Shown piece by piece: positions 363 to 56,449 of a stretch of DNA of 64,000 nt (position 1 is the first letter of the stretch; every line of letters starts with the position of its first letter). Under the pieces are notes generated by a model, which saw only the letters and a program-made list of their open reading frames with translations, had not been told where the DNA came from and did not search any database. Source of the stretch: Lactococcus allomyrinae (lineage in GTDB: Bacteria > Bacillota > Bacilli > Lactobacillales > Streptococcaceae); NCBI RefSeq assembly GCF_003627095.1, contig NZ_CP032627.1, positions 1,054,001 through 1,118,000 on the forward strand. Direction: 5' to 3'. The translations under genes were made by a program, and so were the position numbers.

Positions 363-1421
363 TTATTTTACTAACTCAAAATTCATGATAACTGGCTCAT
401 GGTCCGACGATTTGAATTGATTATCAATTGTCTTGACATCTAGACTCTTGATATTATCTGATACGAGAAATCCATCAATTGTACCAAAAATATTTTTGGG
501 ATTTTTAGCATCATAAGGAACATCTAGAGAGCGCACAGTTGGCGCATTTGTTGGGGCGACAACTCGCATTCCTTTGGTCAAGTTTTCAGTAGGGAACTCC
601 TTCATCCACGTGAGTTCTGGATGAGCTTTTCCTGCTAAAGCGTGATTATAGTCTGCTCCACAAATCACATAATCACCTGCATTGACATATTTTTGCATAC
701 TGTCAAATAGTGTTAAGAGTTGCTGTTTTTGAATCTTTTGATCTTTAATAAATGCTGAAAGATGGGTATTAAAAATTACAAATTTTTTGTTTGAATGCTC
801 AATCGGTAAGATATTGACATCAAAGGCTCGATCTAGGTCAAAAAATTTATTGAAATTCGTCTCAATTGGTAATTTATAACGAGTAGAACTTTCAATTTTG
901 TATTTTGAATAAGTCATGATTCCTGATTTTGCTTTACCAATCGGTTTCGTAACTGGGTAAAAGAGATAAGCAGAGTCATAGTTTTGTGTCAGTACTGACG
1001 AATAATCTGTCAGTGCATCACGCACCATCTTTGGCTCATCAACGTGCTGACTACGGTCACCTTGCCAATCAATCTCCTGAATATTCCCAAAATCTGGGTT
1101 TTGTGTCTTGATTAGGCGAATATCCTCATTAATCGCATCTTTCACCGCTTGCTTACTATAAGCTCTGACATCCGGACCGCCATCCATGAAAAAGCTAAAT
1201 GATGGCGGATAAGAGCCGTAACCAATGTTGAAAGTCATCATTTTATAAGTTTTACCAAGCTCAACTTGTTCCACTTTTGGACGATTTATCGTTTCTTTGA
1301 TATCGTTAGGAAGCCTATGATATTGGGCATAAGCGTAAATAAAATAACCACCAACGACCACAATAAGAAGACCTAAAATTCCTCCTAAAATCTTCAAAGC
1401 CATTTTTAAATATTTATTCAT
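363..1421 (-). CDS. Membrane-anchored endonuclease/exonuclease/phosphatase (EEP) family hydrolase
   Basis: The 352-residue protein has a short basic N-terminus, one membrane helix at about residues 8-30, and an EEP (DNase I-like) fold facing outward. Visible family motifs are a metal-binding Glu in NIQEIDWQ, FNTHLSAF, GADYNH and a C-terminal SSDHEPV, the usual catalytic Asp-His end of the fold. EEP proteins hydrolyse phosphodiester bonds in nucleic acids, phospholipids or phosphoinositides; the substrate cannot be read from sequence. The topology resembles the secreted or anchored EEP proteins common in lactic acid bacteria. It stands alone between a terminator and a spacer rich in CTGTCAG repeats, and its coding sequence contains repeat copies near 987-1015. 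Confidence 0.85.
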   Translation of the reverse strand: MNKYLKMALKILGGILGLLIVVVGGYFIYAYAQYHRLPNDIKETINRPKVEQVELGKTYKMMTFNIGYGSYPPSFSFFMDGGPDVRAYSKQAVKDAINEDIRLIKTQNPDFGNIQEIDWQGDRSQHVDEPKMVRDALTDYSSVLTQNYDSAYLFYPVTKPIGKAKSGIMTYSKYKIESSTRYKLPIETNFNKFFDLDRAFDVNILPIEHSNKKFVIFNTHLSAFIKDQKIQKQQLLTLFDSMQKYVNAGDYVICGADYNHALAGKAHPELTWMKEFPTENLTKGMRVVAPTNAPTVRSLDVPYDAKNPKNIFGTIDGFLVSDNIKSLDVKTIDNQFKSSDHEPVIMNFELVK

Positions 1422-1584
1422 TTTATTCCAAAGTTTTTCTAATTTTTACTCATAAAAATACAAATATCACTGACAAGTTTTCTGTCAGTGACCATCTTCT
1501 ATAGCTTGCCGTGCTTATACGAACAATCCCGCTCACTATCTCTGCATCAGCTTATCAGTATACTGACAAGCTTTCATAAGACAA

Positions 1585-2172
1585 TCATTTACTCTCAGAA
1601 ATCATCTCTAATACTTGCGCAGTATTTCTCACACGCCCAAGACGAGTGAAAATCCCTTCAACAATACCTTTATGCAATGCTTCATTGAAATCGGTCATGG
1701 CATCTTCAACTGTAATCACCTGATAACCATGTTGAAAAGCTTCTCTGGCTGTTGTATCACAACCAATCGTCGTCGCAATTCCAGTTAGAATAATCTCTTC
1801 TATGCCACGTCGACGAAGTTGCACATCAAGGTCTGTCCCATAAAACGCTCCCCAATTATGCTTCGTCACATGGATAACATTTTTCACATTTTTATCATAA
1901 GCAATGGGAGACACAAAGTCTGAGTAGTCATCTGGGACTTGTCCTGCTACTTGCAAAGGTGTGTCTAATTTTGGATGTAGTGTCTCACCACCGTAATTTT
2001 TTACATGGACAAAGACAATTAGTGCCTCTGTATTGGCAAGTGCTTTAAGGAGTTGCTCATTTTTCTCAAGCACTTCTTCAGCACCATAAGGCGCAAGTCC
2101 TGCTCTTTGTGCTATTCCTTTTTGTAGGTCAATCAAAACTAGTGCTGTTTTATTTAATTTAAGTGTTGACAT
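1585..2172 (-). CDS. Isochorismatase-like cysteine hydrolase
   Basis: The protein is 195 residues when started at the ATG at 2170-2172 (MSTLKLNKTALVLIDLQKG); an in-frame ATG 13 codons upstream gives an extension without family similarity. The catalytic triad of the isochorismatase/nicotinamidase superfamily is visible: Asp in VLIDLQKG, Lys in HVTKHNWGAFYGT and Cys in IATTIGCDTTAREA. Members cleave isochorismate, nicotinamide, carbamoylated amines or ureas. With no menaquinone or siderophore genes beside it, the substrate is unknown. It lies downstream of rnr on the same strand but 170 bases away. Confidence 0.88.
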   Translation of the reverse strand: MSTLKLNKTALVLIDLQKGIAQRAGLAPYGAEEVLEKNEQLLKALANTEALIVFVHVKNYGGETLHPKLDTPLQVAGQVPDDYSDFVSPIAYDKNVKNVIHVTKHNWGAFYGTDLDVQLRRRGIEEIILTGIATTIGCDTTAREAFQHGYQVITVEDAMTDFNEALHKGIVEGIFTRLGRVRNTAQVLEMISESK

Positions 2173-2341: not shown

Positions 2342-4774
2342 TCAATACTTTTTATGCGCTTTTTTGCGTCCTTCGGCAAAACGACCACTGACAGCTTTTT
2401 TGTCAGTAAATTTCCCTTTGGCTGCTTTCGTGTAAAAAGGTTTTTTCTTTGCTTTTTTCTTTTTATTTTCACTGACCGTTTTGTCAGTACTGACAGGGGT
2501 TTTAGATTTACTGACAGCTTTCTTGTCAGCCACATTTTTAACTCTAAGCGCTTTTCCAGTGGACTTTTTTCGTTTGTTTTCTGGTTTTTTCTTGATTTTT
2601 ACATTTTTATCAATCGTATCAAACTCAGATGGAAGATAGGCAAAATCTATTTCACCTGTCATTTTGTCAGCTTTGACCACTTCAATTTTAATGAGCTGTC
2701 CGATTTTGAAAATTTGCCCTGTACGCTCTCCTACCAAAGCTAGCATCCGCTCATGATAATTAAAATAATCTCCCTTTAATGTCGAGATATGAATCAAGCC
2801 CTCTATCGTATTTGGCAATTCCACAAACATACCAAAACGTGTCACACTCGAAATCACACCTTCAAAATGCTCACCAATATGTTCTTCCATAAACTCTGCT
2901 TTTTTCATCTTCTCAACTTCACGTTCAGCATCAACTGCTCGACGCTCTCTATGACTTGAATGTTCAGCAATTTCAGGAATTTTATCTTCCCATTTTTGTA
3001 AAAGCTTATCGTCTATTTTTCCGAAACCTATTTCTCGAATCAAGCGATGCACCAAAAGGTCAGGGTAACGACGAATAGGTGATGTAAAATGCGTATAATT
3101 CTCAGCAGCTAATCCAAAGTGTCCAGCATTGTTTTCAGAATAACGCGCTTGTTGCATACTGCGAAGTAGCATCGTTGATAACACCATCTCACCTGGTTGA
3201 CCTTTTACTTTCCGCAAAAAATCCTGCAGTGCTTTTTGATTAATGGTGCCAGCAGTTGTATCTACCTGCATTCCAAAAGTAGCCGCAAAGTCAATAAAAC
3301 GCTGCAGACGATCAGCCTTAGGCTGCTCATGAATCCGATAAATGAAAGGTAAACCATGTGTCTCAAAATGCGTTGCAACCGTTTCATTTGCCTCCAACAT
3401 AAAAGACTCAATCATTCGCTCTGCTACACCACGGCTACGTTTTTTAATCTCAACAGGCAAACCTTTTTCATCAACAATAATCTTTGCCTCAACTGTTTCA
3501 AAATCAATGGCACCACGTTTTTTGCGCATATTTTCCAAAATATGATGTAAATCAGTCATAATCTCAACAGACGGAGCAATATCAGCGTATTTTTTAAGCG
3601 TTTCTTTATCTCCTGCAATCATCAAATTGACCTCATCATAAGTCATACGTTCACTCGTTTTGATAATTGATTGCGAAATTTGATAATTGATAACCTGCCC
3701 ATCTGGAGTAATCTCCATAACGCAAGATTGTGTCAAGCGATTCACCCGCGGATTGAGTGAGCAAATTCCATTGGACAAACGTTCAGGGAGCATTGGCACG
3801 ACACGATCGGTCACATATACAGAAGTGCCACGCTCAAATGCCTCTTTATCTAATGGCGAATTTTCCGTAACGTAGTGAGAAACATCAGCAATATGAACAC
3901 CAAGTTCAAAATTTCCATTCTCCAATCGTTTAGCGTGTACCGCATCATCAAGGTCTTTAGCATCAGCTCCATCAATTGTGAATGTAATCTCCTCACGGTA
4001 ATCTACTCGCCCCACAATTTCACTCTCTGGCACTTCAGCTGGAATACTCTCAGCTTGTGCTAATACATCCGCTGGAAATTCAGACACGATGTCCATTGAA
4101 GCCAGAACTTCCAATACGTCAATTCCCGTATCACCTAATTGCCCAACAATCTCTGTAATAACACCTTGCATAGATTGTGGAAATTCGGCATCTGGATAAT
4201 GAGTGATTTCTGCCCGAATAATCGCCTTATTTTCAGGAATAAGCCCCTCATCCGTCAAATAAACGCGGTAAGGTATTTTTTTATTACGTGATTTGACATA
4301 GCCAATCAGCCCTGTATCTTGCTTTTCTTTTTCATCAAAGGCAACATAAGTTCCAACAATCTGGTGCAGCTCATGCCGGACAATTTCGACAATATGTCCC
4401 TCTGCTGCACTTCCTTTGAGTAGATTTGCATTTTTATCGAGCTCAATAAAAACCTCATCTCCATCTAATGCAAAGGCTGTTTGACCTTTTCCAATAAAAA
4501 CATCTGGCTCATCCACATCAATTGTAACAAACCCAAAACCTGCAGCATTCGCCCTGAAAATTCCATTAATCAGAGCCTTCGCTTCTTCAAGTTCTACTTT
4601 CCCTTTACTTGTAAAATGAAGCAGATGTTCTGATTCCAGCGAGGCCAATGTTTTAACAAAAAGTTTGAAATCTCCAGACTTATTCAAATGCAATGCAATG
4701 GCAAGCTCTTCAACTGACAAAGCCGTTTTTGAACTATTTTGTAAATAGTCCATAATTAATTCTCTAATATTCAT
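2342..4774 (-). CDS. rnr: Ribonuclease R, 3'-5' exoribonuclease
   Basis: 810 residues in the RNase R order: N-terminal helical/HTH region, cold-shock domains (about 70-230), RNB catalytic domain (about 260-590) with metal-binding aspartates in DGADAKDLDDAVHA and the THFTSPIRRYPDL motif, an S1 domain (about 630-710), and a Lys-rich tail from about 730 to the end. RNase R degrades structured RNA and acts with tmRNA in ribosome rescue. In streptococci rnr follows secG, as here, although a 690-base gap separates them. The coding DNA for the tail holds several CTGTCAG/CTGACAG repeats (2382-2529), so part of the tail seems made of repeat-encoded residues such as STDKTVSENK. Confidence 0.97.
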   Translation of the reverse strand: MNIRELIMDYLQNSSKTALSVEELAIALHLNKSGDFKLFVKTLASLESEHLLHFTSKGKVELEEAKALINGIFRANAAGFGFVTIDVDEPDVFIGKGQTAFALDGDEVFIELDKNANLLKGSAAEGHIVEIVRHELHQIVGTYVAFDEKEKQDTGLIGYVKSRNKKIPYRVYLTDEGLIPENKAIIRAEITHYPDAEFPQSMQGVITEIVGQLGDTGIDVLEVLASMDIVSEFPADVLAQAESIPAEVPESEIVGRVDYREEITFTIDGADAKDLDDAVHAKRLENGNFELGVHIADVSHYVTENSPLDKEAFERGTSVYVTDRVVPMLPERLSNGICSLNPRVNRLTQSCVMEITPDGQVINYQISQSIIKTSERMTYDEVNLMIAGDKETLKKYADIAPSVEIMTDLHHILENMRKKRGAIDFETVEAKIIVDEKGLPVEIKKRSRGVAERMIESFMLEANETVATHFETHGLPFIYRIHEQPKADRLQRFIDFAATFGMQVDTTAGTINQKALQDFLRKVKGQPGEMVLSTMLLRSMQQARYSENNAGHFGLAAENYTHFTSPIRRYPDLLVHRLIREIGFGKIDDKLLQKWEDKIPEIAEHSSHRERRAVDAEREVEKMKKAEFMEEHIGEHFEGVISSVTRFGMFVELPNTIEGLIHISTLKGDYFNYHERMLALVGERTGQIFKIGQLIKIEVVKADKMTGEIDFAYLPSEFDTIDKNVKIKKKPENKRKKSTGKALRVKNVADKKAVSKSKTPVSTDKTVSENKKKKAKKKPFYTKAAKGKFTDKKAVSGRFAEGRKKAHKKY

Positions 4775-5443
4775 AATTTTTTTCTAAGAATCAATAATCA
4801 TAAAAATATTTTCGACGACTTATCACTCACTTATTCGTTGTAAAAAGTGACAGGCAATCAAGTTTAAAGTTAGTCTATGTATTTTCAAAACTACTGATTC
4901 GTATCCAAACTTTCAAAAAGTTTGAATACATCCTTTCTTATCTCAGTTCGTATGAACTTATTTCTCATTCTGTCAGTAGCATTAATCATTTTATCATTAC
5001 TGATAGAATCAATTCTGCTACTGACAGAAAATATTTTACTGACAAAAGTCCATAAATCCTATGGCACAAGGTCATTTAGTATTGTTTCATTTCTATAAAT
5101 TTCTTTTAGAAACTACTATGGTGTGCTGGTCAAGTGTCCATTCGTTCTATCTCCGCTTTGCTCTGCTTCTGATTCCACTAAACCACTAGGTCACTAGGGA
5201 AACAACCAGCATATCCATAAGCACTGAAACACCAACAGCTATCCTATAAAGTCGCAAGTTACCTAAAACAGCAAAGCAAAGCGATTCACTACACTGTCCG
5301 TTGTTTAGCAAGCAAAGCAATTCATCTACTAAAATTTTAAGCAGATTTAGAATTGGACGAGTCTATCAAGCAACCTTTGTCCCGCAAAATAAAAAGATAC
5401 AGACAAAACGCAACGATTGTCTAATATCATTATAAACAAAATA
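4775..5443. other. 670-base intergenic region without a recognisable gene
   Basis: I could find no credible ORF or structured RNA here on either strand. It contains repeat half-sites at about 4970, 5021 and 5037, short reiterations of GCAAAGC-type words (5270-5320), and a TATAAT at 5429-5434 on the minus strand just past the secG terminator, which could start a transcript toward rnr. It is unusually long for this gene-dense window and may be the relic of a lost gene. Confidence 0.4.
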
Positions 5444-5784: not shown

Positions 5785-5878
5785 TATTTTTTTACATTTG
5801 TGGTTAGCCGTCATTATTACTACGATTTAATTTCTAAAAGTTCTTTTTAGAAATCAAAGAAACCGTACTGACAAATAT

Positions 5879-5910
5879 AAAATACCTGTCAGTACACTGA
5901 CAGGTATTTT
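5879..5910 (-). terminator. trxB terminator formed by the CTGTCAG palindromic repeat
   Basis: AAAATACCTGTCAG (5879-5892) pairs perfectly with CTGACAGGTATTTT (5897-5910) around TACA. The core is the window-wide repeat word, and the flanking A/T runs make a 14-bp terminator stem downstream of trxB. The rest of the 330-base gap between secG and trxB holds only further repeat half-sites. Confidence 0.75.
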
Positions 5911-11469: not shown

Positions 11470-13137
11470 TTAAAACAATCCTGAGATTTTCCCATCGTTG
11501 GATACATCCATATTAAGTGCTGCTGGACGTTTAGGAAGGCCTGGCATTGTCATTATATCCCCCAGCAATGCAACGATAAATCCTGCGCCAATTTTGGGAA
11601 TTAACTCTCTTACCGTGATTTCAAAGCCTTCTGGTGCTGCAAGAAGATTTGGATTATCTGAAAATGAATACTGAGTTTTTGCCATACAAACAGGAAGATT
11701 AGTCCAACCATTTTCTTCAATTTCTCTCATTTGTCTCTTAGCTTTTGCAGAAAAATTCACTTTGTAACCGCCATAAATTTCTGTCACTATTTTGTTAATT
11801 TTTTCAGAGATAGGGCTTTCAAGAGCATAAAGATAACTAAAATCAGATTTTTCTTGTAATAATTTTTTGAGTTGACGGGCAAGGTCAAGACCACCTTCGC
11901 CACCTTTCTCAAAAACTTGTGTCAGTGAAATCGGTACTGACAAACTTTCTGTCAGTGCTGACAGTATTTCAATTTCGGCTTCTGTATCTGCTGCAAATTG
12001 ATTAATTGCCACGATTACTGGTAAACCATAAGATTGCATATTTTCAATATGACGTTTAAGATTGGCAAAACCAATTTTTACCGCCTCAACATTCTCCTTG
12101 GTTAACTCTTTCTTATCAACACCACCATGCATTTTAAGCGCCCGAATCGTTGCCACAATAACGACGGCATCAGGTGTTTTCCCAAGTTGACGTGTCTTAA
12201 TATCTAGGAATTTTTCACCGCCAAGATCTGCTCCAAAACCAGCTTCCGTAATCACTATATCTGACAGTTTTAAAGCTGTTTTTGTTGCCAAAACAGAGTT
12301 ACATCCATGTGCAATATTAGCAAATGGACCACCATGAATAAGCGCTGGTGTTCCCTCAATCGTCTGTACCAAATTAGGTTTCAACGCATCTTTTAAGAGC
12401 ATCGCAATGCTTCCTGCAACCCCTAATTCCCCAACTGTGACAGGCTTACGATCATAATTTTGTGCTACAACAATTTTTGAAATACGATACTTCAAATCTT
12501 CCAATGATGTTGCAAGGCAGAGCACTGCCATGATCTCACTGGCTACCGTAATATCAAAGCCGTCTTCGCGTGGAACACCATTCAAAGGCCCTCCAAGACC
12601 AATGGTTATATGACGAAGCGCACGATCATTCAAATCCAAAACCCGTTTCCAAATCACTCGACGTGGATCAATATTCAAAGGATTTCCCTGATGAAGCGAG
12701 TTATCAAGAAAAGCTGCAATCGCGTTATTTGCTGTCGTAATCGCATGAATATCTCCTGTAAAATGCAAATTAATATCTTCCATCGGCAAAACCTGAGCGT
12801 AACCGCCCCCTGCCGCTCCACCTTTCACTCCCATTACGGGTCCAAGAGAAGGTTCGCGAAGTGCAACCATTACTGATTCACCAAGGCGCGCAAAAGCATC
12901 TGCAAGGCCAACTGTCACGGTAGATTTCCCTTCGCCCGCAGGAGTTGGATTGATTGATGTTACAAGCACCAATTTTCCTTCTCGGTTTTTTTCAAATTTT
13001 TCTAATGTTTCAAGTGGTATTTTCGCCTTATATTTTCCGTAAAGTTCAATATCATCAAAGTTTAAGCCAATTTTTTTAGCAATTGAAGTAATCGATTGCA
13101 TGGTTGTTGCTTGCGCAATTTCAATATCAGATTTCAT
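11470..13137 (-). CDS. fhs: Formate-tetrahydrofolate ligase
   Basis: 555 residues, the family's usual length. The ATP-binding loop [11 protein letters not shown], the [14 protein letters not shown] segment and the C-terminal [15 protein letters not shown] motif are clear. The enzyme makes 10-formyl-THF from formate, ATP and THF, feeding purine synthesis and formyl-Met-tRNA. The start follows AAAGGGGGAAATA, and a TATAAT lies just upstream (minus strand, 13153-13158). It is transcribed alone. Repeat palindrome CTGTCAGTGCTGACAG is embedded in the coding sequence at 11949-11964. Confidence 0.97.
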
Positions 13138-15187: not shown

Positions 15188-15576
15188 AATTTTTTTCCTT
15201 TTCTTACTTTAACTTAGCAAGTGCGTGCTAACTCCCCACCTCTTAGATGTGGGGGAATAAGCAGCACTAAACTCTGCTTTCGTTCTACTAACACTGGTGA
15301 GAGAGGGAAAGAATCCTCCACCAATGAAGTAATCACTTTAATCTATGTCGTCCGATCAATAATCCGAACATTCTTATTTCTGTCAGTACTGACAAAAAAG
15401 CTGTCAGCATTTATTTTTTTAATTTAAGAAGTGCTAACTCATTCTCCCACAAACCTTATATGGCAGTATTATCAGCACTTACATCAGCGAAGAAAATCCC
15501 CGCTGACACAGTTTCTGTTTAGTCCTGGTAAATTATGACGTAAATTTTCTGTCAGTATACTGACCAAATTTTTGGG
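15188..15576. other. Spacer upstream of deoD with hairpin and repeat copies
   Basis: No gene is apparent. It contains the near-palindrome AGCAAGTGCGTGCT (15216-15229), which recurs upstream of the RpiR gene; a CCCCAC/GTGGGG hairpin (15234-15254) like those at IS200/IS605 ends; and CTGTCAG palindromes at 15381-15394 and 15549-15564. Confidence 0.45.
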
Positions 15577-16244: not shown

Positions 16245-16298
16245 TTTGTTCATTCTTTCAACATTCTGTCAGTGCTGACAGAAATCGGTCAGTGACTT

Positions 16299-24332: not shown

Positions 24333-25274
24333 ATGAAGATGAGAAAATATCGTTGGTTGATTGTGCTTTTTATCCTTGTTTTTGTTTGTGCTGCGGCGCT
24401 TGGAAAATTTTCTTTTAAAACGGAACAGCAGTTAAAGATTCAGCAGAACAAAATAAAAAAACAAGAATTAAAAGTCTTGCATGAAAAACAAGAACAGGCT
24501 GTAAAGGAGCAACTTTTAGATCAAAAATTACTGACGAATGCAAAAAATTTACTGACAGAATACGAAAAAAATCCTGTCAGTGCTGATAAAATGGCTGACA
24601 CCTTGTCAGCATTGCCAAAATCAAAAGAACGAACAAAATTACAGGCAAAATTTGCGGAAGTAATGTCTGTCAGTAACTGGACAGCTTTGGTTGAGAATGA
24701 TGCTACGCAGATTATCCTGTCAGCAAATGCTGCGGCGAATCATGGACAAGCAAATTTTTATAGAAGTACTGTTTCAAAGGAAATTGAGGATGCACGCACA
24801 GAATGTCTATATAACAATAGTATTTCTGAAAAAGGAGTGCTCAGACAGGCGCATAATTACATTCCCAATCCCGGAATGCAAAACATTGCCGCAGAAAATG
24901 GGCAAACTTATCTGTTCACTAAAGCTGGGGCAAAGCAGTTGGCAGAAGATTTGACTAACAGTTACCTCGCAGAGAAAACAGGCTATGATGCACTCATCAA
25001 GGCGGGATACACTGCAGCGCAAATCCAATATGATGATGCGAAAGTGACTGTCGGAAAAATCATTTATAGTTTTAAGGGGATGGATGGCTCTGGTTTTGAG
25101 CATTCTGCTGACGGTGGGGTTGTGGGGCATTATCTTGCTCTGGTCAATCAAAATCCAGCTCAACGGATGAATCGCTTCTCTGTAGGAATTTATTATAATG
25201 TTGCGCATGAACAAGCTTTTGAAACGGTTGATTTTTATCTCCCTCAGACGACAAAAGTTGATAGCTGGCACTGA
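24333..25274 (+). CDS. Unknown membrane-anchored extracytoplasmic protein with coiled coil
   Basis: 313 residues. Residues 1-7 are basic, about 8-28 form a signal anchor (WLIVLFILVFVCAAALG), and about 33-75 are a charged, Lys/Gln-rich probable coiled coil. The rest (about 100-313) is a soluble domain I do not recognise, with TYLFTKAGAKQLAEDL and HYLALVNQNPAQRMNRFSVG. No LPxTG, no lipobox and no FMN-attachment motif are seen. The ribosome site is weak (GAAGAG) and no promoter was seen after the preceding terminator, so it may depend on read-through. Its coding DNA is dense in TGTCAGT-type repeats (24528-24728). Confidence 0.7.
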   Translation: MKMRKYRWLIVLFILVFVCAAALGKFSFKTEQQLKIQQNKIKKQELKVLHEKQEQAVKEQLLDQKLLTNAKNLLTEYEKNPVSADKMADTLSALPKSKERTKLQAKFAEVMSVSNWTALVENDATQIILSANAAANHGQANFYRSTVSKEIEDARTECLYNNSISEKGVLRQAHNYIPNPGMQNIAAENGQTYLFTKAGAKQLAEDLTNSYLAEKTGYDALIKAGYTAAQIQYDDAKVTVGKIIYSFKGMDGSGFEHSADGGVVGHYLALVNQNPAQRMNRFSVGIYYNVAHEQAFETVDFYLPQTTKVDSWH

Positions 25275-26311: not shown

Positions 26312-26394
26312 ACTTCTGTCAGTATCATCCAAGCTTGTAAGCACACTGACAGAATTTTTGTCAGTAAAAATTGACCAAAAATAAGGAAAAACAA

Positions 26395-30287: not shown

Positions 30288-30403
30288 TTCATCTCCAAAT
30301 TTCCTGTCAGTCATCTCTCACTGATACTGTAATATCAAAAGCAAACCTATACTATACCATTTAAAAAGCTGTCAGCATACTGACAGACTTTTATATATAA
30401 AAT

Positions 30404-33974: not shown

Positions 33975-34124
33975 GAAGTAATGAAAAATAGGTAAATTTT
34001 CGCCTCTGCTCAAGGGTAGGTTCAAAATTTCATCTTTTTTCACTTACTTCTAAAAGGGTAAAATCAATTACACAAGGTGTGTGCACGATTTGCAAGAACT
34101 GTCAGTATACTGACAGAATATTTC

Positions 34125-35245: not shown

Positions 35246-36733
35246 TTACTTTTGCAACACTATCTCTTTATCAGCGACATGATTGATAAATGCTCGGTCA
35301 TGCTCAACGACAAGTAACGTTGGTTGAACATTTTTCAGCAAGCTCTCAATCTGTTCATGGTTAAAAACATCGAGGTAGTTTAACGGCTCATCCCAAATAT
35401 AAAGTTGCGCAGTTTGCGATAAAGCTCTTGCTAACTCGACTTTCTTTTGCTGACCTTGACTCATTGTTTCAATTTTTTGAGAAAAAACATTTCGCTCCAT
35501 CCCAAGTTTTTTGAGATTTGCTAGAAAAAGTTCAATGTCCAATTGATTTTGAACAGCAAATTCTCTCAAAAATCCTTCGTTTTGATAGTTCTGTCTGACA
35601 TATGCCACTGAAATATTATGAGCCACAGTCAATAGACCATGTGTTTCTCCTTCAAATGTACCACTCAAATATTTGATTAAACTTGATTTACCAGCACCAT
35701 TTTTGCCCGTAATCGCAATAATTTCTCCCTGATTTAACTCAAAATTTAATGGTTGAAACAGTTTTTCACCATCAAAACCCAGAGAAAAATTCTCCAACCT
35801 CAGAAGCACTTTATGGTGCGAAGCGACAAAATTCATAGAGAGCGGCTCAATGTGTTCAATATTTTTTAGCAATTTTTCCTTATCCATTATTTCATCGTTC
35901 ATTCGTTTTTCGAGATTTTTCGATTTTTGCATCATATTTGCTGCTTTTCGACCAATAAATCCTTTATCTACTCTCTTTGTCTCACTATCAAAACCTCTAT
36001 TTTTTCGAGATTTTGTTGCTTCAAGATTTCTTGACCAGGTCTCTTTCTCACGTGCTGTTTGCTTTAAACGTGAAATATCTCTACGTAATTTGACATCTTC
36101 TGCTAACTCAAACTCATCGCGAAGTTTTTTCTCAGCTTCATAGGTTGAAAATGTGCCTTGGTAAAGACTAATTTGTTGCCGCTCAATCGCTAAAATATGG
36201 TCACAAACTTGATTCAAAAAATCACGGTCGTGCGAAACAACAATGAACCCCGACTTCTTCTTCAGATAATTTGCAACTGTTTCTCGACTTTCTATATCCA
36301 GATGATTCGTTGGCTCATCAATCAAAGGAAAATTTTGTTGTTCCAAAAACAGCAATGCCAACAAACACTTGGTCTGCTCTCCACCAGATAGAGAACTAAA
36401 TGGTCGCCATAAAGCATCCAAATCGACTTTCAAAAGCGTCAATTCCCGTTCCAATTCCCACTGTTCAAACTCTGTCAGTGCTGACAAAGCATAAAATGTG
36501 AGTTCATCCCTATCTGTCAGTTCCTGCGGAAAATAAACAAATGTTTTGTCAGTGCTGACAGGACTGTCAGATTTGATTTCACCTTGTAAAAGTTTCAAAA
36601 GTGTTGACTTACCTCGTCCATTTCTTCCGACCAACCCCAATTGCCACTTATCATCTATATTAATTTGTGCATGGTCAAAGATTAACTCTGCACCGTATCC
36701 GAATGTTAAGTTTCTTAATTCAATATTCGACAT
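35246..36733 (-). CDS. ABC-F ribosomal protection protein, Lsa-type
   Basis: 495 residues with two ABC ATPase domains and no membrane segment. Domain 1: GRNGRGKST, LSGGEQTK, LIDEPTNHLD. A charged interdomain linker (about 190-290) should reach the ribosomal peptidyl-transferase centre. Domain 2: GKNGAGKSS, MSQGQQKK, IWDEPLNYLD. Size and signatures fit Lsa/Vga-like antibiotic-resistance ABC-F proteins that displace lincosamides, streptogramin A and pleuromutilins; lsa(D) of Lactococcus garvieae is the nearest I can recall. A ~220-base leader with a tiny ORF and terminator-like hairpin supports antibiotic-induced attenuation. Repeat words occur in the coding sequence (36472-36561). Confidence 0.85.
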   Translation of the reverse strand: MSNIELRNLTFGYGAELIFDHAQINIDDKWQLGLVGRNGRGKSTLLKLLQGEIKSDSPVSTDKTFVYFPQELTDRDELTFYALSALTEFEQWELERELTLLKVDLDALWRPFSSLSGGEQTKCLLALLFLEQQNFPLIDEPTNHLDIESRETVANYLKKKSGFIVVSHDRDFLNQVCDHILAIERQQISLYQGTFSTYEAEKKLRDEFELAEDVKLRRDISRLKQTAREKETWSRNLEATKSRKNRGFDSETKRVDKGFIGRKAANMMQKSKNLEKRMNDEIMDKEKLLKNIEHIEPLSMNFVASHHKVLLRLENFSLGFDGEKLFQPLNFELNQGEIIAITGKNGAGKSSLIKYLSGTFEGETHGLLTVAHNISVAYVRQNYQNEGFLREFAVQNQLDIELFLANLKKLGMERNVFSQKIETMSQGQQKKVELARALSQTAQLYIWDEPLNYLDVFNHEQIESLLKNVQPTLLVVEHDRAFINHVADKEIVLQK

Positions 36734-40656: not shown

Positions 40657-41097
40657 CTAATTTTTATGTTCTTTTAGATAGGCCTCGTTTTCTTCAACCC
40701 ACTTGGGAAGTTCTTTTTCTAGTGATTTGAAGCCGATTTTATCTCTCGGGTCAGTAAAATGTTTTTTTCTATAGAAATGGTGAATCTGTGGACTCTTTTC
40801 TAGACTGCGAATTGACAGGCTAATTTTTCCATTAAATTCATCAATATCTATAATTTGTGCTTTTAACTTTTGACCAATCTTAACAATGTCATGAATTGTC
40901 TTAACATAGCCTGATTGAATTTCGGAGATGTGAATCAGCCCTTTTTGTTCTATTTTCTCACTGACAGAAGTGCTAGAGGCGCTGTCAGCACTGACAGAAT
41001 TTCTGTCAGTAAAAAATTTTACAAAAGCACCATAATCTTGCATGCCTACTACTTCAACTTCAACAATATCTCCTATTTTAGGATGTGTAACTGTCAT
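40657..41097 (-). CDS. S1 domain RNA-binding protein (YugI/CvfD-like)
   Basis: 146 residues from the ATG at 41097 (MTVTHPKIGDIVEVEVVGMQDYGAFVKF). Residues 5-80 form one S1 domain (GLIHISEIQSGYV, GQKLKAQIIDID), followed by a basic tail (FYRKKHFTDPRDKIGFKSLEKELPKWVEENEAYLKEH) typical of the YugI/CvfD group. These bind ribosomes or RNA and act in post-transcriptional stress control. The S1 core is interrupted by a Ser-rich insert at about 35-50 that is encoded by repeat palindromes (40970-41010). The start lies one base after the cyclophilin stop. Confidence 0.85.
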   Translation of the reverse strand: MTVTHPKIGDIVEVEVVGMQDYGAFVKFFTDRNSVSADSASSTSVSEKIEQKGLIHISEIQSGYVKTIHDIVKIGQKLKAQIIDIDEFNGKISLSIRSLEKSPQIHHFYRKKHFTDPRDKIGFKSLEKELPKWVEENEAYLKEHKN

Positions 41098-41098
41098 A

Positions 41099-41689
41099 TT
41101 ATCGCTCAATAATCTCGATCGTTTCGATAACAACATCGTCTACTGGTTTATCTTGTACACCTGTAGGAACTGCTGAAATCGCATCTAACACTTCAAAGCT
41201 TTCTTCTGTTAAAAGTTGCCCAAAGACAGTGTGACGTCCGTCAAGATGTGGCGTTCCTCCTTTGGTATAAAGCTCCGCAACTTCTTCTGGCCAACCGCCT
41301 TCAACCAACGCTTCCTTTGGATAAGGCAAATTTTTATTTTGTACGATAAAAAATTGACTACCATTCGTATTTGGACCTGCATTTGCCATCGACAAAGCAC
41401 CACGTACATTGAAAGCGTCCATTGAGAATTCATCTTCAAACTTATCTCCGTAAATAGAGCTACCACCCATTCCCGTTCCAGTCGGGTCGCCCCCTTGAAT
41501 CATAAAATCTTTGATGATACGATGGAAAATAACACCGTCATAATAGCCTTGTTTGCTTAATTCAACAAAGTTTTTTACCGTCTTTGGTGCCAATTCGTCA
41601 AATAACTTCACAGTCATTTTTCCGTGATTCGTTTTGATAATTGCAGTTGTTCCTGCGTATTTTTCGAGTTCAAGTTGTGGATATGCCAT
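41099..41689 (-). CDS. ppiB: Cyclophilin-type peptidyl-prolyl cis-trans isomerase
   Basis: 196 residues from the ATG at 41689 ([25 protein letters not shown]). The active-site motif [22 protein letters not shown] and [11 protein letters not shown] are intact, plus a lactococcal/streptococcal insert [30 protein letters not shown]. No signal peptide, so cytoplasmic. It accelerates proline isomerisation. In streptococci, as I recall, this domain is fused behind a Cof-type HAD; here the two are adjacent separate genes in the same order. Confidence 0.93.
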
Positions 41690-41891
41690 TTTATTTTTAC
41701 CTTTTATTTCTATTATTTTATCACAAAGCAAGTAATCAATTCTTACATTTTTGTAAGCTGTCAGTATGCTGACAGAGTAATTAGTGGAACTAATTAGCCC
41801 CTCATTTATCGATCCAATGCTCCCATTAATCACATGAGCTGACCGAAATTTTATTCGTTTCAGTCAAGTTTTGACGTCACTGATAAAATCA

Positions 41892-43681: not shown

Positions 43682-44680
43682 CTAGTGACTTTTTGAAGTA
43701 TCGGTTTTAGGTATTCTTACTTCTACCGTTGTTCCGGCATTTGGCGCTGAAATAACTTTAGCATCTCCACCGAGCAAAAGCGCTCGTTCTTTGATATTTG
43801 CTAAACCATAACTTGCTGTTTTATCGCTTCCAGTCGTATCAAAACCAACACCGTCATCGGAAATTTTTAAAATAATGTTTTCTCTGTTCTCACGAAGGAT
43901 AACTTCAATATTTTCAGCTTGTGAATGCCTGAGCGTATTCGATAAAATCTCCTGCGCCATCCGAAAGAGATTGTCTTCAATATTTCTTGAAGCTTCAATT
44001 TCAGCCAGCTTCACACTGATATTTGCTGATATTTTCGCCTGTAATTCGTCTGTCAGTGCTGACAGACCCTCTGACAGTAATTTTCCATCAAGTTCAACAG
44101 GACGAAGGTGTAAAAGAAGCGCTCGCATCTCATTTTGTGCAGAATGAAGCACTTTTAAGACCAGCTGAGTCTGCGTTTCAATTTGCTCTTTAGTCAAATT
44201 TTGTGTAGAACCTGCAACACTAGATAGTATCATAGTTGCAGCAAAAAGTTCTTGACTCACGGAATCATGAAGCTCTCGAGAAATACGTTTGCGCTCTAGC
44301 TCTATGATTTCCGCTTTATCCGCCGATTTTTGCTTAGATAGCTCTTGAAGTTCCATTGACATTTTGATGATTTTTTCATGAATAACTTGTAATTCAGGCG
44401 CTTCTGGTTGTTGATTTTGTTCTAGTCGTTTAATATCGTTTTGAAAATTTTGTTGGATTTTCACATTTTCAAGATAGTTAAACAGGGTAAAAATCAGTGC
44501 AAGTAAGCCTGCAACTGATACAAAAATCCATAATCCATAAAGATTTCCGCTAAAATCCCCCATCATTTCTGGCATTCCTCCAAGCGGTCTGCTACTGTTC
44601 ATCAATGCAAAGAGAACCAGATACATGACGATGATGATACCAAAAACAGCTAGAAAGGTGGTGACAATTGATTTTTTCAT
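43682..44680 (-). CDS. cesS: Envelope-stress sensor kinase, CesS/LiaS-like
   Basis: 332 residues: two membrane helices (about 8-28 and 48-68) with a very short outer loop, typical of intramembrane-sensing kinases; a coiled region; the HisKA_3 dimerisation domain with phospho-His in ERKRISRELHDSVSQELFA; and an HATPase domain ending ISDDGVGFDTTGSDKT and GTTVEVRIP. The start overlaps the LiaF-like stop by 4 bases. It should phosphorylate CesR on cell-wall damage. Confidence 0.88.
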   Translation of the reverse strand: MKKSIVTTFLAVFGIIIVMYLVLFALMNSSRPLGGMPEMMGDFSGNLYGLWIFVSVAGLLALIFTLFNYLENVKIQQNFQNDIKRLEQNQQPEAPELQVIHEKIIKMSMELQELSKQKSADKAEIIELERKRISRELHDSVSQELFAATMILSSVAGSTQNLTKEQIETQTQLVLKVLHSAQNEMRALLLHLRPVELDGKLLSEGLSALTDELQAKISANISVKLAEIEASRNIEDNLFRMAQEILSNTLRHSQAENIEVILRENRENIILKISDDGVGFDTTGSDKTASYGLANIKERALLLGGDAKVISAPNAGTTVEVRIPKTDTSKSH

Positions 44681-46180: not shown

Positions 46181-46212
46181 AAATTTACTGACAGATGTCT
46201 GTCAGTAAATTT
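46181..46212 (-). terminator. YhgE-gene terminator formed by the repeat word
   Basis: AAATTTACTGACAG (46181-46194) pairs perfectly with CTGTCAGTAAATTT (46199-46212), 14 bp, right after the YhgE stop and followed by TTTTTAC on the minus strand. Confidence 0.75.
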
Positions 46213-46215: not shown

Positions 46216-48621
46216 TTAAGCAAATCGTGAAATCTTCTTAAAGAAGCTAAGTGCACCTGTAAAGACAAGTATAATTACCCCAAAAAGCAAGACATAAGGA
46301 AGAATATTTCCACCTAGACCAATCGTTTCACGCAGCATCCGTAATCCATAAGTCATTGGAAGCCATGGACTAATTACTTGGAAAATATGCGGAGCCAGCT
46401 GTAATGGATATGTCCCAGCACTCGTCGCCAATTGCAAGACAAGAAAGACAATCATGACAAACTCCCCAACCTTACCTAACCATGTCAAGAAGAAGGTATT
46501 AATTGCCATGAATGCAAAACTAATCAAAATCACTGACAACAGCATCCGTAAGTTATAATTTGCTCGAAGTCCAAGCGCAACAACCGCACCATAAACGATA
46601 AGAGCTTGCAGGAGGGCAACTAAACCATTTGTTCCGATTTTGGCCCACATGAATTCACGACCAGATTTCCATTTTTCACCAGAGAAACTGTGACCGATAA
46701 CAACGTTTGTTGCAAGTGCCCCTATGAAGAGGGCCACACAAATCATGTAAGGTGTCATTCCTTCGCCATTGACAGGAACATTGTCATGGTCTGTATGCTT
46801 CATTTTGAGTGGTGTTGCAATCTTGTCAGCATTCTTTTTATTACTATTTGTCGCTGACAGCTTTTTATCAGCATCTGTCAGTGCTGACGAAAGTGTGCCT
46901 GCGCCATCATTTAGACTATCCAAACCTTTTGTCAGTGTTTGACTTCCGTCAGCAAGTTGACTTGAGCCTGAAGCAATTTGTTTTGCTCCATCAGCAAGTT
47001 GACTTGAACCTGAGCTTAATGACTGGCTATTCCCTTGTAATTGCGTTAGTCCTGAAACCAACTGCAAGCTACCCGTTTGCAAGTCTTTTGACTTGTCAGC
47101 AAGCTGATGAGCACCATCATTCGCTTGATTGACACCCGCTGCAAATTGATTAAATCCTGAAGTAAGCTGTTGTCCTCCTGCAGTTATCTCAGTATTAAAC
47201 TGTGCAGCTCCTGCTGCCAACTGGTTAGTTCCTGGCAAAATTTGATTACTCAAAGTAATATGAGCATTGTCTATTCCGGTTGATAACTGGTTAATGGTTT
47301 GAGATGCAGCTGGAAGGATTTGAGCAGCTCCATTTGCCAACATTTGAGTTTGAGTTTGTAAATTCTTCAATTGATTACCAACATTTGTCAAACTATCTGA
47401 AATTGACTGTGAATCAGTCTGTATTTCTGTTGAGTTTTCCGCAGAATTCTTTAATGCATTAAGCAAATCCGCCTGTTGTGCTGATGTCAAATTTTTAAAA
47501 GTGTCTGTTGCAGAAATTGCCGTGGTGGACGCCGTCAGTTGGTCTTGAATAATTTTCGGCAAAACAGCCTGAACATTTTTTAAATCATTTTCCATTTGAG
47601 TCACAACTGTTGAATCGGTACTCCCAGCTTGAATCTGTTGATTAAGGGCTGTCAAGCCAGTTTCTAGCTTTATAAAATTTGCCTTATCTTCATCAGACAG
47701 GCTGGTTGCTGCTGACAGTTTTGTCAGTCCATCAGCAAGTTGCTGACTAGCTGACTGCAGTTGATCCGCAGCTTCTGAACTTTGAGAAATTTTTGCAATC
47801 CCAGCAGATAATTCTTTTGATTTATCCGCCAAAGTTTGAGTCCCTTCAGCCAACTGTTCAGCGCCTGTAGAAAATTGTTTCGTGCCATCAGCAAGTTTTT
47901 CGCTACCTAAAGCTGCTTGTTTTACACCTTCAACATACTTATCAACACCAACATTTAATGTATTTGCTCCATCGGTAAAAGTCAAACTTGATGATGCCAA
48001 TGTGTTTAGATTTTTTGAAATCTCTGACGAACCACTCAAAGCCGTTTGACTACCATCAGCGAGTTTTTTAGAGCCATCTGAAGCCTCCTGCATCCCTGGT
48101 TTCATCTCAGCAATTTTATCAAAAATAGCCTCAGTATAATCTTTGGTCACTTTTTCCGAAACTTTGGCTTTCAATTGTGTCACAGCACTTTCACTCATTT
48201 TGGAAGAAATATAGTTATGACCACGTGTCGTTTGATAATCTAATTGTACTGCTTTTGGATTTTCTGACATCAAACTTGCTGCATTCTCTGAGAAATCTTT
48301 AGGGAAAGTAATAACCATGTAGTAATCCCCTTTTTTAATTCCATTTTTAGCATCAGCTTTTGATACAAAATGATAATCCAAATCTTTTGATTTCTTCATT
48401 TCAGAAATCACCTTATCACCAAGTTCTAATTTTTTACCATCCAATTCAGACGCCTTGTCCATATTCACAACTGCCACTGGCAAATCTTTTAAATTCCCAT
48501 ATGGGTCCCACATTGACCCTAAGAAAATATAATTATAAATTGCCGGAACCAGTGACAATGCGATAATAACGATGATAAAAAATTTATGCTTGAAGATAGC
48601 TTGCCATTCTTTTTTTAACAT
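46216..48621 (-). CDS. YhgE/Pip family membrane protein (phage infection protein-like, ABC-2 type)
   Basis: 801 residues: one N-terminal membrane helix (about 13-33), a ~580-residue extracytoplasmic region, and five C-terminal helices with an ABC-2 permease look. The outer region carries many heptad-like repeats of the form QLADGAKQIASGSSQLADGS, predicting long coiled coils, as in the lactococcal phage receptor Pip and B. subtilis YueB/YhgE. Function may be in envelope export; such proteins serve as siphophage receptors. It is divergent from a TetR gene, with a shared operator-like repeat between them. Confidence 0.92.
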   Translation of the reverse strand: MLKKEWQAIFKHKFFIIVIIALSLVPAIYNYIFLGSMWDPYGNLKDLPVAVVNMDKASELDGKKLELGDKVISEMKKSKDLDYHFVSKADAKNGIKKGDYYMVITFPKDFSENAASLMSENPKAVQLDYQTTRGHNYISSKMSESAVTQLKAKVSEKVTKDYTEAIFDKIAEMKPGMQEASDGSKKLADGSQTALSGSSEISKNLNTLASSSLTFTDGANTLNVGVDKYVEGVKQAALGSEKLADGTKQFSTGAEQLAEGTQTLADKSKELSAGIAKISQSSEAADQLQSASQQLADGLTKLSAATSLSDEDKANFIKLETGLTALNQQIQAGSTDSTVVTQMENDLKNVQAVLPKIIQDQLTASTTAISATDTFKNLTSAQQADLLNALKNSAENSTEIQTDSQSISDSLTNVGNQLKNLQTQTQMLANGAAQILPAASQTINQLSTGIDNAHITLSNQILPGTNQLAAGAAQFNTEITAGGQQLTSGFNQFAAGVNQANDGAHQLADKSKDLQTGSLQLVSGLTQLQGNSQSLSSGSSQLADGAKQIASGSSQLADGSQTLTKGLDSLNDGAGTLSSALTDADKKLSATNSNKKNADKIATPLKMKHTDHDNVPVNGEGMTPYMICVALFIGALATNVVIGHSFSGEKWKSGREFMWAKIGTNGLVALLQALIVYGAVVALGLRANYNLRMLLSVILISFAFMAINTFFLTWLGKVGEFVMIVFLVLQLATSAGTYPLQLAPHIFQVISPWLPMTYGLRMLRETIGLGGNILPYVLLFGVIILVFTGALSFFKKISRFA

Positions 48622-54067: not shown

Positions 54068-54097
54068 GCTCGTTCTCCTTTAAATATAAAATGTGGA

Positions 54098-54138: not shown

Positions 54139-54179
54139 ATTTTGATTCCCAAGCACAGTTAATCATCAGCTCTTATTTC

Positions 54180-54842
54180 TTATGCCGTCTTTTCAAATTT
54201 TCGATGTTTGAGCGTATAGACAATGTCTGACGCTGCTGCAACATCATTTTCATGAGTAACAATAATCACAACTTTATTATCTTCGTGTGCAATCTTCTTA
54301 AATAATGCTACGATTTGACCTGTTGTTTCTTCGTCAAGGTTTCCTGTTGGCTCATCAGCAATGATGACGTCATGATTGAGCACTAATGCCCTAGCAATTG
54401 CAACTCTTTGTTGCTGACCACCTGAAAGTTTGCTGACAGGTTTGTAGATCAAATCTTCTGTCAGTCCGACTTTACCAAGTGCTTCAACAATCGAAGCTTT
54501 TTCGTTTTCAAACTTTACTGACGAAATCTTAACCGCTGTTTTGACATTTTCGTAAGCACTCATATAAGTTAGTAAGTTGTAAGCTTGGAAAATCGTGCTG
54601 ACAGTTTTTTTGCGATAACTTGTCAGTGTGCTTGCTTTTATTGGTTTATCATCAAAAGTCATTGTCCCTGATTTTGGTGTATCTAGCCCTGCAAGCAAAG
54701 AGAGGAAGGTTGTTTTCCCAGAGCCTGATTGTCCAAGAATAGCATACATTGTACCTTTCTCGAAAGTTTCACTCACATCTTTAAAAAGATACTCCTCTGG
54801 ATTTGTATAATAGTAGGTCAAATTTTCAACTTTTAGTGTCAT
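54180..54842 (-). CDS. MacB/LolD-type ABC transporter ATP-binding protein
   Basis: 220 residues with Walker A GQSGSGKTT, Q-loop TIFQAYNLLTYM, signature LSGGQQQRVAIARA and Walker B VIIADEPTGNLDEE. Spacing and motifs put it in the MacB/LolD/FtsE clade, which powers mechanotransmission rather than bulk transport. It follows the FtsX-like permease gene by about 110 bases; that gap holds the repeat palindrome TGTCAGTACTGACAG (54861-54875). It would couple to the permease and the small accessory protein encoded upstream. Confidence 0.93.
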   Translation of the reverse strand: MTLKVENLTYYYTNPEEYLFKDVSETFEKGTMYAILGQSGSGKTTFLSLLAGLDTPKSGTMTFDDKPIKASTLTSYRKKTVSTIFQAYNLLTYMSAYENVKTAVKISSVKFENEKASIVEALGKVGLTEDLIYKPVSKLSGGQQQRVAIARALVLNHDVIIADEPTGNLDEETTGQIVALFKKIAHEDNKVVIIVTHENDVAAASDIVYTLKHRKFEKTA

Positions 54843-54955
54843 TTTTTTCTCCTGATTCTTTGTCAGTACTGACAGATTTTCTGTCAGTCACTTTTTGCCT
54901 TATGACATCAGTTGGGAAGATAATCCTAGCTGATGAAATCAGTCAAACAAGCCTT

Positions 54956-56449
54956 TTAATTGGTCAGCACTTGTTTTGGATTAAGCCGTAAAATGCCAAT
55001 ACTTGCGAGTCCCACCGCAATCAGTGTAATCAAGATTGCTATTCCAACGAGAAGTAAGATTTCGCTAAATGATGTCTTGATGTTCAATTTTTCAAGCGCT
55101 TGAGTTTGTGCTCTAGATTGTCCAAATCCAAAAGCTCCGCCTGCACGTTCAGCAAATCCGCCACCATTTCCTGATGGTCTTTGCATTTGTCCACTGCCAT
55201 TATTTTCATTGCCATTAGGCATACCATTATTGGTTGTAGTTTGTGTGGTTTCTTGTTTTAGCAGTTGTTGTCCGACTACATTTCCCACAACATTACCTGC
55301 TGCAGAAGCGATACCAACCGATACCACCATTACCATAAATAATTCAAAGAAAAATTGTCCAACAATCTTGAATTTTGATTCACCCAGACTCATCAGAACA
55401 CCGATTTCAAAACGACGTTCACGAACCATGAGCATGACAATGAGTGCAAGAATAATTGCACCAGCTACTGCAACGAGTAAGACAATATTTCTGGCAAAAC
55501 CAGCCACATTATTTAGTGAAGATTTTACATTTTGATAAGCTTGGTCATTTTTGGAAACTTGGAAATTATCATCATTGACAAGTGCATTCGCCTTTTTAAC
55601 AAAGCTGTCAGCATCTGCTGGATTTGTCATTGAATATGTTGCCGTTGAGATTTTACCTGTTGTTGCTTTCATTGCGTTGGCTACTGAAAGCGATGTATAC
55701 ATGGTATTCATGTATTCAATTGATTGCTCTGTTGAACCACTTGTTGTTGTAAAAATACCGACAACGGTCATCTTGTAAGTTTTGCTATTACTATCTTTTA
55801 AAGTAAAAGTTGAGCCAACTTTTAAATCATTTTGACTAGCAAGCGTAGATTCAATAACAACATGATTTGTCCCTTCGTCAGAAGCTGTAATACCTCGTCC
55901 AGAAGTAATCTTGTAGCTGTCAGTAAAGGAAGTCAATGCTGACAGATTATTCGTACCAGAAATAGTAAAATCAGACTGATTACCAAACATTCCGCCACCT
56001 TGACCACCGCCAAAACCGCCACCTGCATTTGAGTTATTTGATGTGCTTGAATCCGACACTTTTGTAATACCAGAATCAGCACTTGCAGATGCAGAATAAG
56101 AAAAACTGTAAGATTTCACACCTGATAAGTCAGCGATTTTTTGCGCTGTACTCTCTGCAATCGTTGGCATTTCAATCTTAAAGTGCTGCCCTTGTGAGTC
56201 ACTACTGCTTGAATCGCTACTTGAACTATTTGAACTTTGAGCTGCTTTAATCACATTTTGCATATTCACTGACAAAGAAACCGTAGCCCCTGCCGCTTTT
56301 TTAGCATTTGCAATTGACGTTCTTGCTGCACTATTAATAATAAGACCTGAAAGTACGAAAATCAAAATTGCTGAAAATGCAATAATCAAAAGTACCGTCC
56401 GTCCAATTTTAGCTTTCGTAAAAAGCCATGCTCGTCTTATAAAATCCAT
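54956..56449 (-). CDS. MacB-like ABC transporter permease (FtsX fold)
   Basis: 497 residues. One N-terminal membrane helix (about 17-40), a ~270-residue extracytoplasmic domain, then three C-terminal helices with the FtsX domain (VMLMVRERRFEIGVLMSLGESK). Two low-complexity inserts stand out: a Ser/Asp run near residue 75 and Gly-rich segments (NAGGGFGGGQGGGMFGNQ near 145, and another at 405-440). The family exports peptides or lipids or senses envelope antibiotics. It lies between the small Gly/Ser-rich anchored protein gene and the ATPase gene. Confidence 0.9.
   Translation of the reverse strand: MDFIRRAWLFTKAKIGRTVLLIIAFSAILIFVLSGLIINSAARTSIANAKKAAGATVSLSVNMQNVIKAAQSSNSSSSDSSSSDSQGQHFKIEMPTIAESTAQKIADLSGVKSYSFSYSASASADSGITKVSDSSTSNNSNAGGGFGGGQGGGMFGNQSDFTISGTNNLSALTSFTDSYKITSGRGITASDEGTNHVVIESTLASQNDLKVGSTFTLKDSNSKTYKMTVVGIFTTTSGSTEQSIEYMNTMYTSLSVANAMKATTGKISTATYSMTNPADADSFVKKANALVNDDNFQVSKNDQAYQNVKSSLNNVAGFARNIVLLVAVAGAIILALIVMLMVRERRFEIGVLMSLGESKFKIVGQFFFELFMVMVVSVGIASAAGNVVGNVVGQQLLKQETTQTTTNNGMPNGNENNGSGQMQRPSGNGGGFAERAGGAFGFGQSRAQTQALEKLNIKTSFSEILLLVGIAILITLIAVGLASIGILRLNPKQVLTN

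Follow-up and report, generated by a model that had tools for sequence, protein, structure and literature searches.

A half-site word with species dialects in Lactococcus genomes and its possible role as a self-DNA uptake signal

The DNA stretch analysed here (the window) comprises 64,000 bases of the Lactococcus allomyrinae genome (G000; 2,758,410 bases in three contigs), namely positions 1054001-1118000 of contig C1. A short iterated word runs through its genes and spacers. The heptamers TGTCAGT and ACTGACA occur 37 and 27 times, respectively, 64 in all, where 11.4 are expected on both strands by an order-3 Markov model, and the top 8-mer of the window, ACTGACAG, is found 42 times versus 2.5 expected. 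The longer pattern TCTGTCAGTACTGACAGA, with at most five mismatches, matches at 21 places, a few of which overlap, compared with about two per sequence in ten order-3 simulations. Open reading frames (ORFs; the longest non-overlapping frames as called by a script, uncurated as genes) of at least 80 amino acids contain 36 of the 64 heptamers, distributed over 15 ORFs, and 28 lie outside. Both the excess and the presence of sites in coding regions as well as spacers had been noted by eye in an earlier annotation of this DNA (the original prediction), and both were borne out. The following features of the window illustrate the arrangements (no strand is assigned except where one is given).

987..1014: inverted pair TGTGTCAGTACTGACGAA and a further half-site, inside ORF 363-1421
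2387..2516: half-site cluster inside ORF 2342-4774 (RNB domain protein), with an inverted pair at 2387-2407, a perfect palindrome at 2482-2495 and a half-site at 2510
4971..5044: spacer with half-sites at 4971, 5020 and 5038
5867..5902: spacer array with half-sites at 5867, 5887 and 5896
11920..11964: four half-sites arrayed within the formate-tetrahydrofolate ligase gene (11470-13137)
15379..15409: in a spacer, the palindrome TCTGTCAGTACTGACAAA and after it a third half-site
16265..16282: TCTGTCAGTGCTGACAGA, in the spacer that follows the phosphopentomutase gene
24551..24611: four half-sites arrayed within ORF 24333-25274
26317..26365: three half-sites arrayed in the interval from ORF 25337-26311 to ORF 26371-27951
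30369..30386: CTGTCAGCATACTGACAG, in the spacer beside gyrB
34099..34116: perfect palindrome CTGTCAGTATACTGACAG, in the spacer beside an EamA transporter gene
36472..36570: group of six half-sites within the gene of an ABC transporter (35246-36733)
40960..41010: four half-sites arrayed within ORF 40657-41136
41758..41775: CTGTCAGTATGCTGACAG, inside ORF 41099-41833
44050..44077: TCTGTCAGTGCTGACAGA pair and one more half-site in the gene for the LiaS-like kinase (43682-44680); G005 and G001 share the pair
46187..46206: tail-to-tail pair following ORF 46216-48621, aligned with ACTGACGT..ACGTCAGT in G007
54433..54439, plus strand: single half-site TTTACTGACAGG inside ORF 54180-54842, identical in G005, G001 and L. 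taiwanensis and spelled TTTACTGACGGA in G007
54861..54888: palindrome and a third half-site between ORFs 54180-54842 and 54956-56449

The gyrB gene itself (30404-32358, minus strand) is covered by two overlapping frames, and the frame in G005 is longer, which suggests a frameshift or an assembly error.

Originally the motif was taken to be a palindrome, and eleven palindromic intervals were listed. All of them contain the pair, three being perfect and six having one mismatched base pair, while the intervals 36547-36561 and 54861-54875 exceed the dyad by one base. The pairs are real, but the constant part is the half-site, (T)ACTGACAGA, and the arrangement varies. Mismatch tables and logos indicate that changes within CTGAC are rare and changes in the flanks common. 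Half-sites occur singly, as inverted pairs and as arrays with a phase of about 10.4 bp.

Word statistics were obtained from samples, 264 kb of G000 and 42-160 kb of the other genomes, and whole-genome counts were made for a few patterns only. The G000 sample contains 433 CTGACA half-sites (185 expected), which, when chained at 45 bp, form 257 clusters: 149 single half-sites and 108 groups of two to six. ACTGACAG was found 177 times (10.9 expected), 142 times with another CTGACA within 45 bp and 35 times alone. Stand-alone copies make up 33 of 87 in G001, 25 of 57 in L. cremoris and 6 of 48 in L. hircilactis, for which the expected totals are 5.2, 3.8 and 3.9. Since the 35, 33 and 25 stand-alone copies in G000, G001 and L. 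cremoris exceed even the expected totals, single sites are well above chance in these three genomes. Palindromic pairs dominate in G000, L. hircilactis and Lactococcus sp. dk101, and single half-sites are numerous in G001 and L. cremoris. The preferred gap also depends on the species. In G000 the most frequent combinations are TGTCAG and CTGACA separated by two (43) or four bases (18) and CTGACA and TGTCAG separated by seven (22) or six (10). A gap of two is preferred in L. hircilactis (49) and dk101 (33) and one of seven to eight in G007 (10, spelled CTGACG), and tail-to-tail pairs with a gap of four are the preferred form in L. nasutitermitis (20, spelled TTGACA), G001 (13), L. taiwanensis (8) and L. 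cremoris (4).

At distances of 25-105 bp, all pair classes of G000 (53 head-to-head, 51 tail-to-tail and 101 direct pairs) follow a 10.4-bp period, which was set after earlier pair counts and whose probabilities treat pairs as independent. Among 151 control sets built from 6-mers of similar frequency, the eight highest all belonged to the motif itself or to words that overlap it. In G000, 54 clusters give rise to the direct pairs spaced at 14-60 bp. Little or no phasing is seen in L. nasutitermitis and L. taiwanensis, which have few pairs. Such a spacing suggests that whatever reads the word contacts several half-sites on one face of the helix. L. hircilactis was excluded from the phasing analysis owing to a 41-42 bp repeat; it has non-coding repeats 41-42 bp apart and, in addition, a second repeat family with words such as ACTGATAG, CCTATCAG, GAGAGTGC and GTTGAGAG, each in about 50 copies in 120 kb.

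The word is neither close to its expected frequency nor confined to the window region, which were the two outcomes named beforehand as speaking against the original prediction. Across G000 ACTGACAGA occurs 973 times (about 353 per Mb in 2.758 Mb) and its reversed form 7 times, and AGTACTGACAG 307 times versus once for its control. Eighteen Lactococcus genomes were compared, G001 being probably L. lactis, as it adjoins L. cremoris. The counts of ACTGACAGA and of the reversed control are highest in G005 (1061/7), G000 (973/7), G001 (836/15), L. hircilactis (G011, 664/10) and L. cremoris (G016, 610/17) and lower in L. taiwanensis (G010, 246/7), dk101 (G014, 164/11), L. fujiensis (G004, 77/10), G007 (67/14), L. 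nasutitermitis (G012, 45/10) and G008 (31/14). No excess was seen in L. petauri (G002), G003, G006, G009, L. termiticola (G013), G015 and L. garvieae (G017), with 8-21 copies versus 11-22 reversed. In a LiaS tree the eleven enriched genomes form one group (support 94/92) with the others outside; a comGA tree was made without two rows. Among 147 other genomes of the order, searched with the G000 spelling only, none exceeded 63 copies, and the 63-copy genome had 64 reversed; some genomes of genus g7 were mildly above the control (19 vs. 1, 49 vs. 23).

Within the clade the word is spelled in species dialects that share the core YTGAC. The top words are TACTGACAGA in G000 and G005, TTACTGACAGAA in G001 and L. 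cremoris, TTACTGACAG in L. taiwanensis, GTACTGACAGA in L. hircilactis, AGTACTGACA in dk101, CTGACG in G007 and TTTGACAG in L. nasutitermitis, the longer strings being composites of top words and logos. Sister genomes (G000 and G005; G001 and L. cremoris) share their spelling, and the dialects follow phylogeny. L. fujiensis gave little motif signal, and no such word was among the top eight 7-mers in the samples of G003, G009, L. petauri, L. termiticola and L. garvieae/formosensis. The top 7-mer of the motif-free L. petauri is GCGCGTG (27 vs. 3.9), the lactococcal Chi site. At aligned CTGAC sites, CTGACA is replaced by CTGACG in G007 in 10 of 21 cases relative to G001, 2 of 3 relative to L. cremoris, 5 of 6 relative to L. 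taiwanensis and 10 of 13 relative to both G000 and G005, these five references not being independent; other C-A contexts change at 11-15%, and the reverse change was seen 0 times with all five references. The spelling in G007 changed in place, as expected if the preference of the reader changed.

Inside genes the word is in excess over what codon usage and protein sequence allow by chance. With 20 synonymous shuffles per genome and both orientations counted, ACTGACAG occurs 88 times in G000 coding sequence compared with a shuffle mean of 8.0 and a highest value of 17, an 11-fold excess. Corresponding observed and shuffled values are 43/3.9 in G001, 32/1.9 in L. cremoris, 26/3.2 in L. hircilactis, 32/1.8 in G005 and 8/1.6 in L. 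taiwanensis, and for the dialect words 78/42 in G007 (CTGACG) and 51/15.6 in dk101 (ACTGACA), so that the excess is found in eight of eight genomes. The density in G000 is 1.60 per kb outside genes versus 0.43 inside, and 52 of the 82 merged window sites are coding.

When the coding window sites are aligned with related lactococci, the counterparts are the same, substituted or gapped in 26, 4 and 0 cases in G005, in 6, 14 and 4 in G001, in 5, 23 and 5 in L. taiwanensis and in 0, 20 and 4 in G007. Gain within genes has been mostly by substitution, whereas non-coding sites are mostly identical or gapped. Between G000 and G005 (95.1% identity, 31,807 columns), 26 of 29 CTGACAG sites are conserved, or 26 of 30 in the reverse view, versus 833 of 1335 (62%) for permuted words. 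Near absence from conserved genes, another observation made originally by eye, held in a comparison by identity: 17 genes with 90-100% identity to the compared stretches of G001 or L. cremoris (12.8 kb) carry zero sites. In this analysis 93 of 258 ORFs matched the G001 or L. cremoris stretches, low-identity matches may be paralogs, some ORFs were counted twice (L079/L160 and L080/L215 overlap), and the 50-60% bin includes comG genes.

The word is scarce in mobile and foreign DNA. Four stretches (80 kb) within G000 C1:190,001-285,000 contain no ACTGACAGA, compared with 94 copies in ten other 20-kb stretches of the chromosome. The motif-free region extends over about 184-298 kb of C1, as delimited by plus-strand copies of the word, and was considered a conjugative element based on a TraG/TraD-type coupling domain and other domains in the nine proteins scanned, among them an AAA-like ATPase, a topoisomerase, a C5 methylase, an LPXTG protein and an IS110 transposase. 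Two small contigs of G000, taken as plasmids, carry one copy in 48 kb, the small contigs of G001 one in 53 kb versus 81 in 240 kb of its chromosome, and three phages four in 88 kb. This scarcity fits an uptake signal without proving it, since any word that builds up slowly would be missing from newly acquired DNA. On the G001 chromosome, two 20-kb stretches (C1:1621000 and 1400001), perhaps prophage or other recent DNA, have 0 and 1 copies. A large helicase of the element (L175:6671-10081) also matches Hint and LAGLIDADG homing endonuclease families, and the small contig C3 of G000 (8331 bases) encodes a cytosine methylase and Bsp6I-type restriction pair that has counterparts with 97-98% identity on plasmids of L. 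cremoris and Enterococcus faecium.

DNA uptake sequences (DUS) and uptake signal sequences (USS) are enriched in competence or genome-maintenance genes, and they are read by receptor pilins such as ComP, with PpdA/ComN as a candidate. The Com genes were fixed as a test before counting. Competence machinery is present in nearly all of the 18 genomes (PF00437 above the cut-off in 18, ComEA above it in 17, CoiA in 18 and DprA in 17). The comG operon and comEA loci of six genomes hold 100 half-sites versus 29 expected from the coding background. ComEA ORFs contain 33 versus 3.3 in seven genomes, above expectation in each, and coiA ORFs 18 versus 4.7 in seven genomes; the Poisson values for comG, comEA and coiA treat related genomes as independent. 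In G000 comEA, which encodes SLBB and HhH domains, has the most clusters per kb among ORFs longer than 600 bp, the other motif-dense genes being ordinary enzymes and transporters. The rpsL gene has 0 sites versus 1.0 expected in three genomes.

We propose, with about an even chance of being right, that the word is a self-DNA uptake signal similar to DUS and USS and that this Gram-positive genus evolved it independently. Some surface component of the Com machinery, either the tip pilins of the Com pilus or ComEA, would prefer the half-site (T)ACTGACAGA, with stronger binding where several of them share a helical face. Motif-bearing DNA would then enter and recombine more often, and the resulting molecular drive would let sites accrue by point substitution wherever the protein code permits, while species diverge in spelling and arrangement. 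A more specific version, which we put forward tentatively and hold to be somewhat short of evenly balanced, is that this is the first self-DNA uptake code of Gram-positive bacteria, independent of DUS and USS, written in dialects and read as an array with avidity by a Com pilus tip or a ComEA polymer. Searches of the open-licence literature of PubMed Central (PMC) brought up no report recognised as describing this word or a Lactococcus uptake sequence. Self-specific DNA uptake has been described in Neisseriaceae and Pasteurellaceae (PMC12616744, PMC12236230), and natural transformability has been shown for L. lactis (PMC11244767); uptake specificity in lactococci could have escaped notice.

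The interpretation in the original prediction is partly supported, the likeness to DUS and USS being its best-supported element: copy number, occurrence on both strands in genes, gain mostly by substitution there, dialects, conservation, rarity in mobile DNA and the many sites in comEA, comG and coiA fit it. Like the DUS of Neisseriaceae (PMC3630211), the Lactococcus word is short, is found in both genes and spacers with copy numbers from hundreds to thousands, forms inverted pairs near gene ends and has dialects with an invariant core. Unlike DUS, it is a different word in a Gram-positive host, and it forms helically phased arrays and near-gapless palindromes that occur also inside genes. The density of about 353 per Mb in G000 is comparable to that of the USS of Pasteurellaceae, about 200-500 in Apl and 500-800 in Hin, and the parts of USS are also spaced by helical turns (PMC12616744). 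The word and the host differ from those of USS, however, and where USS adds AT-rich segments the Lactococcus word adds further half-sites.

A HIP1-like word tied to a DNA methyltransferase with repair or restriction partners, an alternative already raised in the original prediction, is in our view improbable. Like HIP1 and other cyanobacterial words (PMC4390886), the Lactococcus word is iterated genome-wide with species variants. HIP1, however, consists of a palindrome of eight bases with links to GATC and CGATCG methylases, whereas many sites in G001 and L. cremoris are single half-sites, and no C5 or D12 methylase is common to the carriers. In the 18 genomes, PF00145 is absent from the motif-rich G001, L. 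cremoris and dk101, and PF02086 from G000, G001, L. cremoris, L. taiwanensis and G007. With both families missing from G001 and L. cremoris the methylase link is weakened rather than eliminated; PF01555 and PF02384 were not searched. Spread by copying of short mobile palindromes, similar to repetitive extragenic palindromes or miniature inverted-repeat transposable elements, or of terminators, appears very improbable. Terminator function of the inverted pairs, another part of the original prediction, fits the spacers of G000 in part, with a stop codon no more than 60 bp upstream of 30 of the 56 inverted pairs, 24 of 56 with a T-rich flank and 11 of 56 in convergent spacers, which make up 12% of the intergenic length, and the mostly gapped or unchanged non-coding alignments fit copying as well. 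Head-to-head pairs 8 bp apart are nevertheless found in 26 coding and 17 non-coding places, flanks are not common between sites, and for in-gene sites copying is opposed by respelling in place and by the excess of substitutions over gaps (14:4, 23:5 and 20:4 with three references).

The main rival explanation, rather unlikely by our estimate, is that the half-sites bind a clade-specific protein, either an organiser of the chromosome or a global DNA binder, which assembles on a single helical face and has a role in chromosome structure or gene control instead of uptake. It would account for the 10.4-bp period in all pair classes of G000, for the 54 clusters behind the direct pairs at 14-60 bp and for the fact that most G000 sites are in pairs or arrays; a polymerising ComEA or a multi-pilin tip would fit the phasing, a nucleoid protein equally. 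It leaves the density in comEA, comG and coiA unexplained, and the variation of the preferred gap (2, 4 or 7-8) and the weak or missing phasing in L. nasutitermitis and L. taiwanensis, with their few pairs, also speak against it. A strand bias in relation to GC skew was absent in ten G000 stretches, with CTGACAG found 102 times on the leading and 96 times on the lagging strand. This counts against such a protein and also against a Chi-type or other polar DNA-processing signal, which, despite the over-representation of the word and its scarcity in the three phages, was rejected as extremely improbable, GCGCGTG emerging as a separate word.

Several observations weigh against the uptake signal. 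Pairs and arrays dominate in G000 and L. hircilactis, with few stand-alone sites (35 of 177 and 6 of 48), and helically phased palindromic arrays are no described property of DUS. Conservation of ACTGACAG between G000 and G005 is complete from the G000 side (16 of 16) but only 16 of 23 from the G005 side, and in the three phages ACTGACAG occurs 6 times versus 2.6 expected by their own Markov model. As to the competence genes, the count for the comG and comEA loci includes some spacer DNA set against a coding background, L. taiwanensis has no site in comG, coiA has none in three of seven genomes (L. taiwanensis, dk101 and L. hircilactis), and dprA is not enriched (5 vs. 4.3 in seven genomes). 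LiaS, picked for its palindrome, is itself enriched (15 vs. 5.0 in seven genomes). Com genes evolve fast, and permissiveness therefore has a share in their density. L. hircilactis is motif-rich despite an interrupted comG operon. A search for the receptor by clade-diagnostic residues did not place ComGA, ComGC to ComGG or ComEA above LiaS; the diagnostic positions among the clade-conserved ones number 4 of 58 in ComGF, 2 of 34 in ComGE, 2 of 60 in ComGC and 1 of 70 in ComEA, versus 12 of 202 in LiaS. Position K80 of ComGF may be considered a candidate from these alignments, as a lead only.

A truncation of ComGG was tried as a correlate of the motif and rejected. All five genomes of the garvieae group have a short ComGG, in which the N-terminal pilin helix is kept and the C-terminal part is missing. 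This concerns one clade only, L. termiticola and G006 have full-length ComGG and no motif, which also goes against an uptake reading, and deletion of the ComGG tail was without effect in S. sanguinis (PMC12153270). The pilins ComGD and ComGF are responsible for capturing DNA in S. sanguinis and S. pneumoniae (PMC12153270; PMC12040237).

If the word is an uptake signal, it would represent a further independent origin in a different type of envelope, meaning that such signals arise repeatedly, and lactococci would offer a food-grade model for molecular drive and for the isolation of species by dialect. Donor DNA for lactococcal editing could in that case be improved, or may already rely on the tag unnoticed. 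If the reader is not part of DNA uptake, a new protein would be reading a helically phased, species-specific chromosome code in dairy bacteria, which would be equally unexpected.

Two further observations concern competence genes. In L. hircilactis (C7:1-12000) phage-like genes break the comG operon right after comGB, and a 504-amino-acid protein encoded there resembles a serine recombinase by eye. The coiA matches of G003 and dk101 lie in shorter frames of 184 and 175 amino acids, compared with 273-391 amino acids elsewhere.

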